Source: Rhodobacter sp. SGA-6-6 (lineage in GTDB: Bacteria > Pseudomonadota > Alphaproteobacteria > Rhodobacterales > Rhodobacteraceae). From it: DNA of 64,000 nt. The DNA is taken from the NCBI RefSeq assembly GCF_011043545.1, contig NZ_JAAKGP010000005.1, positions 124,001 to 188,000 of the forward strand. The letters run 5' to 3'. This document shows positions 40,186 to 60,536 of the stretch, piece after piece (positions within the stretch are counted from its first letter, which is position 1; every line of letters begins with the position of its first letter). The notes beneath the pieces were generated by a model. It saw only the letters and a program-made list of their open reading frames with translations, was not told the DNA's origin and did not search any database. The translations under genes and the position numbers were made by a program.

Positions 40186-40818
40186 TCAGCCCAGGCGGTC
40201 GCGCAGGGCGGCCCTGGCCCGGCTGACCCGGCTCTTGACCGTGCCGATGTCGCAGCCCAGGATCTCGGCCGCCTGGATGTAGCTTTCGCCCAGAACCGTC
40301 ACCAGGATGATGGTCTCGCGGTAGTGGCGGGGCAGGTCCTGCAGCGCCTCCTCCATCTCCTGCATCCTGAGGTGCCAGAACTGCCCGTCGGTGATGGCGA
40401 CCGGGATCGCGGAGACGCAGTCCGCATCCCCCGTGCGTTCCCGCTTCCGCTTGGCCCAGCTGGAATAGAAGCGGTTGCGCAGGATGGTGAACAGCCAGGC
40501 CCGCAGGTTGGTTCCGGGCTCGAAGCGGTCGATGTTCTCGATGGCGCGCAGCAGGGTCTCCTGCACCAGGTCGTCCGCCTCGGTCCGGTCGCGGCAGAGC
40601 GAGCGGGCGAAGACCCGCAGCGCCGGGATGTAGCTGATGATCTCCTCGCCGCAGCCGCCGCGGGCGGGGGGCGGCTCGGGCGTCTTCGCGGCGGCGGGGC
40701 GGGAGGGCCGGGCCTGCACCTGTGCCGGACCGGCCGGTCGCGGGCCGGAGCGGGGGCCGGACCAGCTGTCGACGGGGGACGGGGGGTCGGGTCTGGCGAG
40801 TCTCATGCAGTCGGTCAT
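40186..40818 (-). CDS. EcfG-type ECF sigma factor with Pro-rich N-terminal extension
   Basis: RNA polymerase sigma factor of about 210 residues. Region 2 (IPALRVFARSLCRDRTEADD through NLRAWLFTILRNRFYSSWAK) and region 4 (LPRHYRETIILVTVLGESYI, AAEILGCDIGTVKSRVSRAR) are complete and of the EcfG/ECF15 type. Ahead of region 2 there is an unusual ~60-residue Pro/Arg/Ala-rich extension (RPDPPSPVDSWSGPRSG) if ATG 40818 is used; ATG 40806 would shorten it by four. A related sigma factor is at 58274. The upstream GGAAC-N16-CATT element suggests control by itself or by the other EcfG. No anti-sigma gene is adjacent. Confidence 0.88.
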   Translation of the reverse strand: MTDCMRLARPDPPSPVDSWSGPRSGPRPAGPAQVQARPSRPAAAKTPEPPPARGGCGEEIISYIPALRVFARSLCRDRTEADDLVQETLLRAIENIDRFEPGTNLRAWLFTILRNRFYSSWAKRKRERTGDADCVSAIPVAITDGQFWHLRMQEMEEALQDLPRHYRETIILVTVLGESYIQAAEILGCDIGTVKSRVSRARAALRDRLG

Positions 40819-40918
40819 CCCTCTCTTGGCCGCCACAAGAGAGACCCTTCCGTCCCGTCTCTGGACGGAGGAGACTTCCCTTGGTGGAGCATTGCGCTGG
40901 CGTCCTGTCGCCCCTCTA

Positions 40919-40944
40919 CAATGCGCGGCGGCGGGGATTGTTCC
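40919..40944 (-). promoter_or_regulatory. EcfG-type promoter (weaker -10) for sigma-factor gene at 40186
   Basis: Minus strand GGAAC (40944-40940) followed after 16 nt by CATT (40923-40920), one mismatch to CGTT. It lies about 100 bp before the sigma gene. The surrounding 40819-41035 holds no other gene I can support. Confidence 0.5.
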
Positions 40945-41035
40945 CCTTCCACCGCCGCCCGGCCGGCCGGGCGGCGGATTACCGCGAAGGCCCGGCCCGC
41001 TTCTTCCCGCGGGAGAGGGACATCGCCTTTTCCGG

Positions 41036-41060
41036 GGAACAATCCGAAGCGCCCGGCGTT
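41036..41060 (+). promoter_or_regulatory. EcfG-type promoter for epimerase operon
   Basis: GGAAC (41036-41040), 16 nt, CGTT (41057-41060). The predicted transcription start is around 41067-41070, at the ATG of a 69-codon frame. Confidence 0.68.
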
Positions 41061-41068
41061 GAGGCGGG

Positions 41069-41278
41069 ATGCAGGACAAGGTTCCCCCGCCCGCACCTTC
41101 CCCCGGCAGGCCCCGCAAGCCGCCGCGCGCCGCCTATGGCGTCGGCGAGGGATTCCCGCCGCGCGCGCCGGAGCGCGCCGTCTTCCCCGACATCAGGCCC
41201 GATGAGCAGGAAGACCGTGCGGCCGGGGACCGCGGGCCGGAGGGCCGCGGCGGCGCAACAGGGGAGGCGAAGCGATGA
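41069..41278 (+). CDS. Possible leaderless small Pro/Arg-rich protein
   Basis: 69-codon frame starting MQDKVPPPAPSPGRPRKPPR. Its ATG lies 8 nt after the -10 of an EcfG-type promoter, so the mRNA would be nearly or fully leaderless, and its TGA overlaps the ATG of the epimerase gene in an ATGA. Those two facts favour translation; the composition (mostly P, R, G, E) and absence of a known family argue for caution, and it may simply be a 5' leader. Confidence 0.35.
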   Translation: MQDKVPPPAPSPGRPRKPPRAAYGVGEGFPPRAPERAVFPDIRPDEQEDRAAGDRGPEGRGGATGEAKR

Positions 41279-58273: not shown

Positions 58274-58792
58274 TCAGCCGGCCAGCGGGATCATCTCGGC
58301 CACCGAGGTTGCGCCGAGATCGGCCATGATCATCGCGCGCGCCCGGCTGACCCGGCTCTTGATCGTGCCGACCGGGCAGCCGCACAGCCGCGCCGCCTCG
58401 TCATGGCTCTTCTCCATCAGGAACACCACCACCAGCGCCTCGCGGTAGGGGTCCGGCAGGCGGCGGATGGCGGCGAGCAGCTGGGCGCGGCAGATGCCGA
58501 GGTCGTGGGCCGGCTGGCAGACCGTCTCCGCATCCGGCTCCCCGGCCTGTGCCCGGCGGATGCGGCGCAGGTCGGACCGCAGGCTGTTGCGCATGATGGT
58601 GAAAAGCCAGGCCCGCAGGTCGGTGCCGGGGGTGAAGCCGGAAATCCCGGCCAGGGCCTTGACCAGGGTGTCCTGCACCAAGTCGTCGGCGGCGTCGGAC
58701 TCGTGCATGAAGCTCCGCGCCAGAAGGCGCAGGGAGGGGATCAGTTCGAGGATTTCATCCGTGGTGTTCCCGCCCACCCCCTGCCGGGACAT
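58274..58792 (-). CDS. ecfG: EcfG-type general stress ECF sigma factor
   Basis: 172-residue sigma factor. Region 2 spans about residues 15-75 (ELIPSLRLLARSFMHESDAA, DLVQDTLVKALAGISGFTPG, DLRAWLFTIMRNSLRSDLRR) and region 4 about 105-160 (REALVVVFLMEKSHDEAARL, GCPVGTIKSRVSRARAMI). It directs transcription of GGAAC/cGTT promoters in Alphaproteobacteria. ATG 58792 has AAGGGGGAG 7 nt upstream. It follows the NepR-like gene by 98 bp, and an EcfG-type promoter lies in that gap, so it is probably autoregulated and held by NepR. Confidence 0.9.
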   Translation of the reverse strand: MSRQGVGGNTTDEILELIPSLRLLARSFMHESDAADDLVQDTLVKALAGISGFTPGTDLRAWLFTIMRNSLRSDLRRIRRAQAGEPDAETVCQPAHDLGICRAQLLAAIRRLPDPYREALVVVFLMEKSHDEAARLCGCPVGTIKSRVSRARAMIMADLGATSVAEMIPLAG

Positions 58793-58830: not shown

Positions 58831-58855
58831 AACCCGCAACCCGGCGATCGGTTCC
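58831..58855 (-). promoter_or_regulatory. EcfG-type promoter for ecfG (autoregulation)
   Basis: Minus strand GGAAC (58855-58851), 16 nt, GGTT (58834-58831), 39 bp before ecfG and 36 bp after the nepR-like stop. Confidence 0.66.
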
Positions 58856-58890: not shown

Positions 58891-59118
58891 TCAGTCGGCC
58901 TCGCCCGTCTCCGGGGTCCGGCCGGCGGAGGCCGCGATGCGCTGGCGCTCCAGCGCCTGTTCCAGGGCAAGGGCGAGGCTGCGCAACCGTTCGGGAACCG
59001 GCTCGGCCGCCACGGCATCGAGCAGCTGGCGGGCGCAGGCCCGCAGGGCCTGGGTTTCGGCATCGTCTGCCGTGTCGTCCTCCCCGATTGCGGCAGGGGA
59101 CTTTTCGTTGCTGAACAT
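58891..59118 (-). CDS. nepR: NepR-like anti-sigma factor
   Basis: 75-residue acidic protein. An intrinsically disordered-looking N-terminus (EKSPAAIGEDDTADDAETQ) is followed by the helical core RACARQLLDAVAAEPVPERL / RSLALALEQALERQR. The EPVPERL-helix is the hallmark of NepR, which wraps around EcfG regions 2 and 4 and is titrated by phosphorylated PhyR. Position directly before ecfG on the same strand is the canonical order. GGAAGGG precedes the ATG. The similarity is confined to a short core, so the assignment rests on motif plus context. Confidence 0.68.
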   Translation of the reverse strand: MFSNEKSPAAIGEDDTADDAETQALRACARQLLDAVAAEPVPERLRSLALALEQALERQRIAASAGRTPETGEAD

Positions 59119-59257: not shown

Positions 59258-59776
59258 TCAGCTGCCGCGGACATGCAGGTGGTTCTGCACATCGGCGACG
59301 CCCGCCGAGTCCCGGGCGCAACGCTCGGCCGCCTGCTTCATCCGCTGCGACCCGACATGGCCGTGCAGGGTGACCAGACCCTCCGAGACGGTGACGAGGA
59401 TGCCGCGGGCGTCGATGGTGTCGGCATCGGTCAGCCGGTCGCAGACATCCTCGCGGATGCGGTCGTCGCTGCGCCGGTAGCCGCGGGGGCCGAGCCCGCG
59501 GAAGCCGCCGTCGGCGGGACCCCGCGGCGGCAGGCCGGGATCGGCGCCGCCGCCGCGGCGGCCATACCAGTCCTGATCGTCGTAATGGCGCTGGTGCCGC
59601 ACGAAACCGTAGGCATGGCCCTCGTCCTGCCGGGGGGTGTAGTCGTCATGCGCCCGGCCCGGCGCCCTGTCCTGCCCGCTGTCCAGCCCCCGCATCCGCT
59701 GGGCGGGCAACCGGAGATCGAGATCCTCGGGGTAACCGAACCTTTCGCGCCGCGGCCCGAAACGTGACTGCGCCAT
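59258..59776 (-). CDS. BON domain protein with Arg/Gly/Asp-rich N-terminal region
   Basis: 172 residues. The N-terminal 95 residues are charged and disordered (FGPRRERFGYPEDLDLRLPA, YDDQDWYGRRGGGADPG). The C-terminal 65 residues are a BON domain: DRIREDVCDRLTDADTIDAR, ILVTVSEGLVTLHGHVGSQR and AGVADVQNHLHVRGS. BON domains bind phospholipid or surfaces in OsmY-like stress proteins; no signal peptide is visible here, so a cytoplasmic place is likely. ATG 59776 has GGAGCAGGA upstream; EcfG-type promoter at 59816. Confidence 0.84.
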   Translation of the reverse strand: MAQSRFGPRRERFGYPEDLDLRLPAQRMRGLDSGQDRAPGRAHDDYTPRQDEGHAYGFVRHQRHYDDQDWYGRRGGGADPGLPPRGPADGGFRGLGPRGYRRSDDRIREDVCDRLTDADTIDARGILVTVSEGLVTLHGHVGSQRMKQAAERCARDSAGVADVQNHLHVRGS

Positions 59777-59815: not shown

Positions 59816-59840
59816 AACCGGGCAGGGGAAGGAATGTTCC
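59816..59840 (-). promoter_or_regulatory. EcfG-type promoter for BON gene
   Basis: Minus strand GGAAC (59840-59836), 16 nt, GGTT (59819-59816). Confidence 0.66.
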
Positions 59841-59861: not shown

Positions 59862-60536
59862 TCAGATCATGTAGCCGCGGCCGTTGCGGCAGAATTCGTA
59901 TTCCAGCCGGGCCAGCAGCCAGTCGGACAGGCCATGGGGCGGGCAATCCTCGACCTCGCGGATCGCCTCGACCAGCACCGCCTCAATCAGCCGGTCGGCG
60001 GCGGCGCTGTCGTGGACCAGCTGGCACGCCAGCACCCGCAGCTGCGGGATCAGATCGCAGGGGCCGGGCAGGGGAACGGCCGGCCGGGCCTGGCCGTGCA
60101 GGTCGGCCAGCAGATCGGCGGTGGGGCTGGGCTTGCGGTGCAGGCTGGCGTGCTTCAGCCGGACCGGCAGCGCGCTGGCCGGCAGGCCGGTGTGGAACAG
60201 GAACGGCCGCTGCCGGGCCTGGAACCTGTCGGCCAGCGGGAAGGACAGTTCCTGACCGACCTCGATGTCCAGGATCGCCGCATCCGCCCGGTCCTCGATC
60301 CGCAGCGCCGCCCCGACCGAGGAGAACGGGCCGATCACCATGTCGCCCGAGCGGCGGATCTCCCGCGCCAGCTGGCCGGCCAGCAGGAGGTCGCCCTCCA
60401 GCACCAGGATGCGCAGCCCCTCGCCGGGGCGGGGAGCGGCATCGCCGGACTGGCTTTCGCCCGGCGGAGCGGGCAGGCCCTTGGACGAGGGTTCGATCGC
60501 AAGGCGGTTCAGCGGATCAGGTGCCGGCCGGTTCAT
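59862..60536 (-). CDS. Response regulator: receiver domain followed by sigma-region-2-like domain (reversed PhyR-like)
   Basis: 224 residues. About residues 41-146 form a receiver domain (LRILVLEGDLLLAGQLAREI, ADAAILDIEVG with phospho-acceptor Asp90, Thr116 in FLFHTGLP, Lys135 in HRKPSP); one of the two usual N-terminal acidic residues is Gly (L-E-G-D). Residues about 161-215, DLIPQLRVLACQLVHDSAAA and DRLIEAVLVEAIREVE, align with region 2 of the EcfG at 58274 (ELIPSLRLLARSFMHESDAA, DLVQDTLVKALAGIS): about 20 identities in 60 including LIP.LR.LA, H.S.AAD and the W-L after the loop. PhyR has the sigma-like part first and the receiver last; here it is reversed and region 4 is absent. GGAGGACCG precedes the ATG. 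Confidence 0.75.
   Translation of the reverse strand: MNRPAPDPLNRLAIEPSSKGLPAPPGESQSGDAAPRPGEGLRILVLEGDLLLAGQLAREIRRSGDMVIGPFSSVGAALRIEDRADAAILDIEVGQELSFPLADRFQARQRPFLFHTGLPASALPVRLKHASLHRKPSPTADLLADLHGQARPAVPLPGPCDLIPQLRVLACQLVHDSAAADRLIEAVLVEAIREVEDCPPHGLSDWLLARLEYEFCRNGRGYMI

Follow-up and report, generated by a model that had tools for sequence, protein, structure and literature searches.

The open reading frame at 59862..60536 (minus strand) raises the question of why a response-regulator receiver should carry a sigma-factor region 2 at its C-terminus, close to the gene of an EcfG sigma factor. The frame lies within a 64-kb stretch of DNA from Rhodobacter sp. SGA-6-6, analysed as a whole and referred to here as the window (positions 1-64000), and its 224-residue product joins a receiver to an EcfG region-2-like domain, as judged from the homology of both halves; the gene is called RR-sigma2, or simply the fusion gene. 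The original prediction saw in it a reversed PhyR, and proposed that it acts either as a phospho-controlled decoy for the nearby NepR-like protein or as a competitor or anti-sigma factor for region 2 binding.

Architecture of the fusion protein

Comparison with known proteins confirms the 224-residue product as an SdrG-type receiver followed by a homologue of EcfG region 2, without region 4. The receiver occupies residues 40-144 (60105..60419, minus strand), where the closest solved receivers by sequence are 2lpm (E=8.9e-8) and SdrG 5ieb (E=6.3e-7), and the region-2-like domain occupies residues 159-220 (59877..60062, minus strand), assigned by HMM, profile and pairwise homology and reading DRLIE where EcfG has DDLVQ. 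The predicted order of receiver first and region 2 second is thus correct, as is the absence of region 4, for the protein stops just after region 2 and has no Sigma70_r4 match. Asp90, Thr116 and Lys135 are found at the positions first given, the acidic pair reads Glu47-Gly48, with the glycine that had been noted in place of one acidic residue, and the EcfG said to lie about 1.1 kb away starts at a distance of 1.07 kb.

The protein departs from PhyR, in which the sigma-like part is N-terminal and the receiver C-terminal, both in this order and in the loss of region 4 from the pair of regions 2 and 4. With region 4 absent and the contact positions replaced, it does not qualify as an ECF15/EcfG sigma factor either. 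What it shares with PhyR is its setting beside nepR and ecfG, as a NepR-like protein (58891-59118, under the Pfam cut-off) and an EcfG (58274-58792) are encoded at the same locus.

Distribution of the family

Twenty-two full-length members were read, all with the same domain order. They comprise the window copy and a second copy in the same genome (G000:C55), four from the same genus (G001, G007 with two, G012), five from the same family (G030, G324 with two, G103, G269), two from other families (G074, G091) and plasmid genes from eight genera, namely Ketogulonicigenium, Paracoccus (two), Martelella, Tistrella, Mesorhizobium, Shinella, Ensifer and Roseivivax. There are near copies among the members, with G001, both G007 genes and G012 lying together and G091 lying with Tistrella, so the member counts given below are not independent. 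In their annotations the plasmid members appear as a response regulator (or its receiver protein), a hypothetical protein or a histidine kinase. Ten of the 30 plasmid matches listed were examined and nine of these were fusions. Rhizobium sp. BG4 (H49), considered as a member, has a single receiver adjoining an EcfG and no fusion, and stands outside the 22.

Among the matches listed, a full-length fusion is present in at least 5 of 394 genomes of the same family and at least 4 of 385 genomes across the class, these being lower bounds with the best 7 or 8 candidates per genome scored in most genomes; within the genus it is found in 4 of 13 genomes. No full-length relatives were met in scans of genome contigs (protein; alignment A3, three receiver-only loci) or of viral contigs. 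The spread is patchy, like that of an accessory gene. Two long open reading frames in G074 (L156:6462-8105 and L157:4953-6464) end in a region-2-like part with no recognisable receiver and look like duplicated remnants.

The receiver

Over the 22 members Asp90 is kept in 21, Lys135 in all 22, Thr/Ser116 in 21 and Asp48 in 20, and because these residues are near-universal the family looks phosphorylatable. Gly48 is confined to the window copy and G030, with Asp in the other 20 of 22, and given this glycine the phosphorylation of the window copy may be weak. The Response_reg model matches at E<=1 in 17 of the 20 members of alignment A4, from which two near copies were omitted. The stretch between the receiver and region 2 varies from 23 to 51 residues across the family, which argues for a flexible rather than a rigid coupling of the two domains.

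In the receiver tree, which included one wrong-strand row (SRR_L117), the PhyR receivers form a separate clade (100/100) and the family receivers lie outside it. In a corrected tree, with the PhyR rows and Tistrella left out, a single clade for the family was not rejected (p-AU 0.506).

Origin of the region-2 domain

The likeness first reported between the C-terminal domain and the nearby EcfG holds up well, with 20/50 identities over residues 161-209 (E=1e-7) and none of 5000 shuffles scoring as high. An EcfG region-2 HMM, built from 23 EcfG domains, was run over the 491 open reading frames of the window and ranked the fusion third with 27.6 bits, behind two EcfGs, the next frame reaching 3.7 bits. 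With the same HMM, 21 of the 22 members score above the best of 4400 shuffles (10.3 bits), the exception being Paracoccus marcusii at 9.4 bits. At the level of profiles, hhalign matches the family region 2 to EcfG region 2 with a probability of 98.8 (E=1.1e-16, 66 columns) and to PhyR region 2 with a probability of 95.4 (E=1.8e-8), and four unrelated pairings used as negative controls gave 0.08-0.38 %. A profile of 13 domains searched against the PDB found the sigma factor 5uxx (1.1e-6), 9cb6 (2.4e-5), SigR region 2 1h3l (1.8e-4) and the PhyR SL structure 2lfw (0.038); 9cb6 is given as a PhyR of Rubellimicrobium (PMC12148442).

In the comparison with sigma profiles that was first suggested, the EcfG region-2 HMM gives the isolated window domain 31.1 bits, and the Pfam model PhyR_sigma2 (PF22029) matches the window copy weakly, with 13.6 bits against a cut-off of 27. 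Across the family the Pfam model does match at E<=1 in 18 of the 20 members of A4 (best 5.6e-8), with five fusion genes over the cut-off. It does not tell PhyR from EcfG, however, the window EcfG itself scoring 45.7 bits. Given the weak match of the window copy alone, its region-2 identity is drawn from the EcfG comparison and from the family. The single-sequence structure models, of low to middling confidence, place three helices in the region-2-like domain, and the structure matches of both models are non-specific and do not single out sigma region 2.

The EcfG region-2 HMM outscores a PhyR HMM for the C-terminal domain of all 22 members, a comparison that leans towards EcfG because the PhyR set holds 9 sequences from close genomes and the EcfG set 23 diverse ones, with six further EcfG ORFs left out because the selection pattern did not catch them. 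Descent by simple permutation of PhyR is disfavoured by these 22/22 scores, even with the sampling bias towards EcfG. The term reversed PhyR is apt as an analogy of function; as a statement of descent it is not supported, with region 2 nearer to EcfG and the PhyR receivers in a clade of their own. The probable source of the mimic is an EcfG region 2 and not a rearranged PhyR.

Replaced and conserved positions

In the window numbering, the EcfG set has Asp at 182 (23/23), Gln at 185 (23/23), Asp or Glu at 186 (22/23) and Asn at 213 (23/23). In sigma70 the Asp, Gln and Glu of this motif are contacts of the beta-prime coiled coil of RNA polymerase. In the family the same positions read Arg at 182 (19/22) and Glu at 185 (19/22), with no Gln at 185, no acid at 186 and, as read from the printed alignment, no Asn at 213 in any member; Asp at 182 is found in one member only, the second copy in the same genome. 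PhyRs are alike in being without Asp182, Gln185 and the acid at 186 (0/9), and a review describes the promoter- and polymerase-binding regions of PhyR as apparently degenerate (PMC8103513).

The core is kept in the family, with Ala170 in 21/22, Leu183 in 21/22, Trp206 in 18/22 and Leu207 in 19/22, and conserved residues such as Gly219 (17/22) lie in the tail. The C-terminal domain, as it appears in the alignment, is kept across alphaproteobacterial orders with a new conserved signature. Because the replacements are themselves conserved, we infer that they point to a new binding surface and not to decay.

The locus and its neighbours

Three further genes on the minus strand accompany the fusion. 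A BON-domain protein (59258..59776; PF04972, E=7.4e-17) is followed by the NepR-like protein (58891..59118), of 75 residues from its ATG, and by an EcfG sigma factor of 172 residues (58274..58792), over the cut-off for both Sigma70_r2 and Sigma70_r4_2 and placed by trees among the non-canonical EcfGs, which is the presumed target of the switch. The NepR-like protein scores 15.2 bits with the family model PF18557 and does not reach the cut-off of 25.7; a profile of 12 module NepR-like proteins matches canonical NepR with E=9.5e-6 and a probability of 82.7. No HWE kinase is encoded in the 64-kb window, and four HWE matches are found elsewhere in the genome. A plasmid location of the window contig is not supported, since the only RepC match in the genome is on another contig.

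Within 4.5 kb of the 22 fusion genes (less at locus ends) there is a NepR-like ORF in 12, an EcfG in 11 and an HWE kinase in 12. Seven proteins from these loci served to train the NepR-like HMM, and 7 of the 12 matches lie outside this training set, the weakest of them being that of Tistrella (3.1e-4). No match at E<=10 was found in 258 kb of control DNA with 3242 ORFs, made up of window positions 1-55000, 35 kb of R. etli p42f and 51 loci surrounding other receivers, whether single or part of a kinase. Within the shorter distance of 1.5 kb, a NepR-like ORF occurs at 10/22 fusion loci and an EcfG at 5/22 (the Ensifer match, being the fusion itself, was excluded), as against 0/51 control loci in each case. 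In G001 and at one of the two G007 loci (G007a) the NepR-like ORF lies just beyond 4.5 kb. The kinases at the G000:C55, G007 and Ketogulonicigenium loci combine HWE and PAS with CheB or CheB-CheR domains, and a separate single receiver adjoins several members.

The published EcfG promoter consensus, GGAAC-N16/17-[C/G]GTT, is matched 15 times in the window, compared with a mean of 1.0 and a maximum of 4 in 40 first-order Markov resamples. Two pattern matches of the form GGAAC-N16-GGTT lie at the locus, one just upstream of the module ecfG (58831..58855, minus strand) and the other upstream of the BON gene (59816..59840, minus strand). Inspection by eye places a match before the module ecfG in G007 (two), G012, G001, G030 and Martelella, and before the fusion gene in Shinella; there is none before the fusion gene of the window. 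With these 15 matches where about 1 is expected, two DUF892 genes, and PRC-barrel and BON genes, the window has the look of a stress-gene island.

In the EcfG tree the module EcfGs are split from the PhyR-linked EcfGs with supports of 97/95 and 98/96, rising to 100/100 when five long-branched orphan EcfGs are left out. Thirteen rows are labelled as module, one of which, that of Rhizobium BG4, has no fusion beside its EcfG. The module EcfGs are not one clade, as orphan EcfGs of the same genomes or plasmids lie among them, and two such orphans are separated from a fusion gene by 5.5 kb (L150) and 6.6 kb (L130). A second EcfG-like sigma factor of the window (40189-41118, minus strand) groups with the Ketogulonicigenium module EcfG (98/93). 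Another EcfG-like sigma factor of the genome (L003:1144-1731, on G000:C8) sits on a long branch among the PhyR-linked EcfGs, with an HWE match about 2 kb away.

A proposed mechanism and its alternatives

The logic of sigma mimicry runs from a kinase through a receiver and a mimic to NepR and EcfG (PMC4598750, PMC5898713). The identities of both domains, the neighbours that recur, the changes at the polymerase-contact positions and the promoter matches are there to be read in the sequences, and we propose that the parts match this logic, with a mimic that is reversed and halved and a NepR-like partner that has diverged. On balance we favour the reading that the fusion is a reversed, region-2-only sigma mimic, an anti-anti-sigma factor that would take its own NepR-like partner away from a non-canonical EcfG. 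In unstressed cells the NepR-like protein (58891-59118) would hold the neighbouring EcfG (58274-58792). Under stress an HWE-type kinase would phosphorylate the receiver at Asp90, and this is presumed to expose the C-terminal mimic, which would then bind the NepR-like protein; both the binding and the direction of the switch are postulated. The EcfG so freed would transcribe its own gene and the BON gene, presumably from their GGAAC-N16-GGTT promoters.

Of the mechanisms first put forward, a decoy role towards the nearby NepR-like protein, under the control of phosphorylation, has the best support, because NepR-like ORFs recur beside the family (12/22) and are absent from the control. The interface between the mimic and the NepR-like protein is suggested to be reduced on both sides, since region 4 is missing from the mimic and the QIDENL stretch is mostly missing from the NepR-like proteins. 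Several observations weigh against the sigma-mimic reading. Region 4, the companion of region 2 in the sigma-like domain of PhyR, is missing; within 4.5 kb, 10/22 members have no NepR-like match and 11/22 no EcfG; the window copy is without one acidic receiver residue, and the window is without an HWE kinase; no EcfG-type promoter match precedes its fusion gene; and the structure models did not single out sigma region 2.

The alternative that survives best, although we consider it unlikely, is that the fusion acts on the canonical NepR, as an accessory stress input to the main PhyR-NepR-EcfG response or as a buffer of it. A canonical PhyR, named beforehand as one of two findings that together would speak against the original prediction, is present elsewhere in the genome, at a complete locus (G000:C23) with PhyR (87.5 bits), NepR (51.2 bits), EcfG and a kinase. 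Among the 11 G genomes searched, a PhyR ORF occurs in nine (G000, G001, G003, G007, G012, G030, G103, G269 and G324), eight of which also carry the fusion, G003 being without it; in most of these genomes, therefore, the fusion is an addition and not a replacement. The second copy at G000:C55 (L078:2739-7338) also fits a canonical target, as it adjoins a CheB-CheR-PAS-HWE kinase and a single receiver, with no NepR-like ORF or EcfG within 4.5 kb. Set against this, 12 of the 22 fusion genes have within 4.5 kb their own NepR-like ORF, which has diverged from canonical NepR, and in two of the 11 genomes, G074 and G091, both of which carry the fusion, no PhyR ORF was found. The best PhyR_sigma2 match of G074 (77.8 bits) was rejected as a PhyR, this 197-residue ORF fitting EcfG better.

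It is quite improbable that the receiver serves mainly as a phosphate sink or relay for neighbouring kinases, with the sigma domain a relic. The single receivers adjoining several members and the defective acidic pair of the window copy would suit such a role, but the C-terminal domain is kept across orders and shares Arg182 (19/22), Glu185 (19/22) and Gly219 (17/22), and the gain of a shared signature is not what one would expect of a relic. Least probable of all, and very much so, is the competitor or anti-sigma reading of the original prediction, in which the region-2 domain would contend with EcfG for binding to RNA polymerase or promoter DNA, or would itself be the anti-sigma factor; it can draw on the clear EcfG region-2 homology and the kept Trp206-Leu207 core (18/22 and 19/22), and is disfavoured because almost every member has other residues in place of the EcfG-invariant Asp182, Gln185, acid at 186 and Asn213.

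Comparison with known systems

Among open-licence papers, a scope outside which most of the subscription-journal literature falls, no account of a receiver-first, region-2-last order was found. To our knowledge, PhyR is the only response regulator known to mimic a sigma factor. It is possible, and we suggest it tentatively, that the fusion represents a second, separately evolved sigma-mimicry switch, in which a receiver acquired its region 2 from a non-canonical EcfG and was paired with a reduced NepR-like protein of its own. Such a stress module would be portable and often carried on plasmids, and would supply the missing control of at least some of the EcfG2-type sigma factors, whose regulation has gone unexplained. 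If so, the occurrence of such a mimic, with the receiver first and region 2 alone, across several alphaproteobacterial orders would mean that sigma mimicry can be built in another way, and the reversed mimic would tell which part of a mimic NepR needs.

The EcfG2 of R. etli, a non-canonical sigma factor, is described as plasmid-borne and largely independent of EcfG1, lying near neither a response regulator gene nor an anti-sigma gene, in a paper that also sees no satisfactory explanation for how widely extra EcfG factors occur (PMC3892343). It falls on the module side of the 100/100 split from the PhyR-linked EcfGs. Unlike the module loci, p42f of R. etli has no full-length RR-sigma2 and no NepR-like match in the 35 kb around EcfG2; therefore R. 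etli itself is not explained by the fusion module. For the extra, often plasmid-borne EcfG factors more widely, the fusion is a concrete candidate controller.

The small proteins of the module share with NepR the P[DE]R..xL..L stretch, within the profile match noted above, whereas the NepR-like protein of the window is without the QIDENL.RV[YF] stretch of nine canonical NepRs; that of Ketogulonicigenium keeps a trace of it, IRDNLR. The closest solved relatives of the fusion receiver, SdrG and 2lpm, belong to the single-domain receivers given the family name FAT GUY (PMC5898713). Those proteins are single domains, whereas the fusion adds a sigma region 2 and its corresponding stretch reads F-[YLFHC]-[TSA]-[GAS].

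PhyR remains the closest parallel. Both proteins fuse a receiver to a sigma-like domain in which the EcfG polymerase-contact positions have been replaced, and the fusion family is likewise often linked to genes for NepR-like proteins, EcfG and HWE kinases. In contrast to PhyR, in which regions 2 and 4 precede the receiver, the fusion has the receiver followed by region 2 without region 4; moreover, its region 2 scores nearer to EcfG and its receivers fall outside the PhyR clade.
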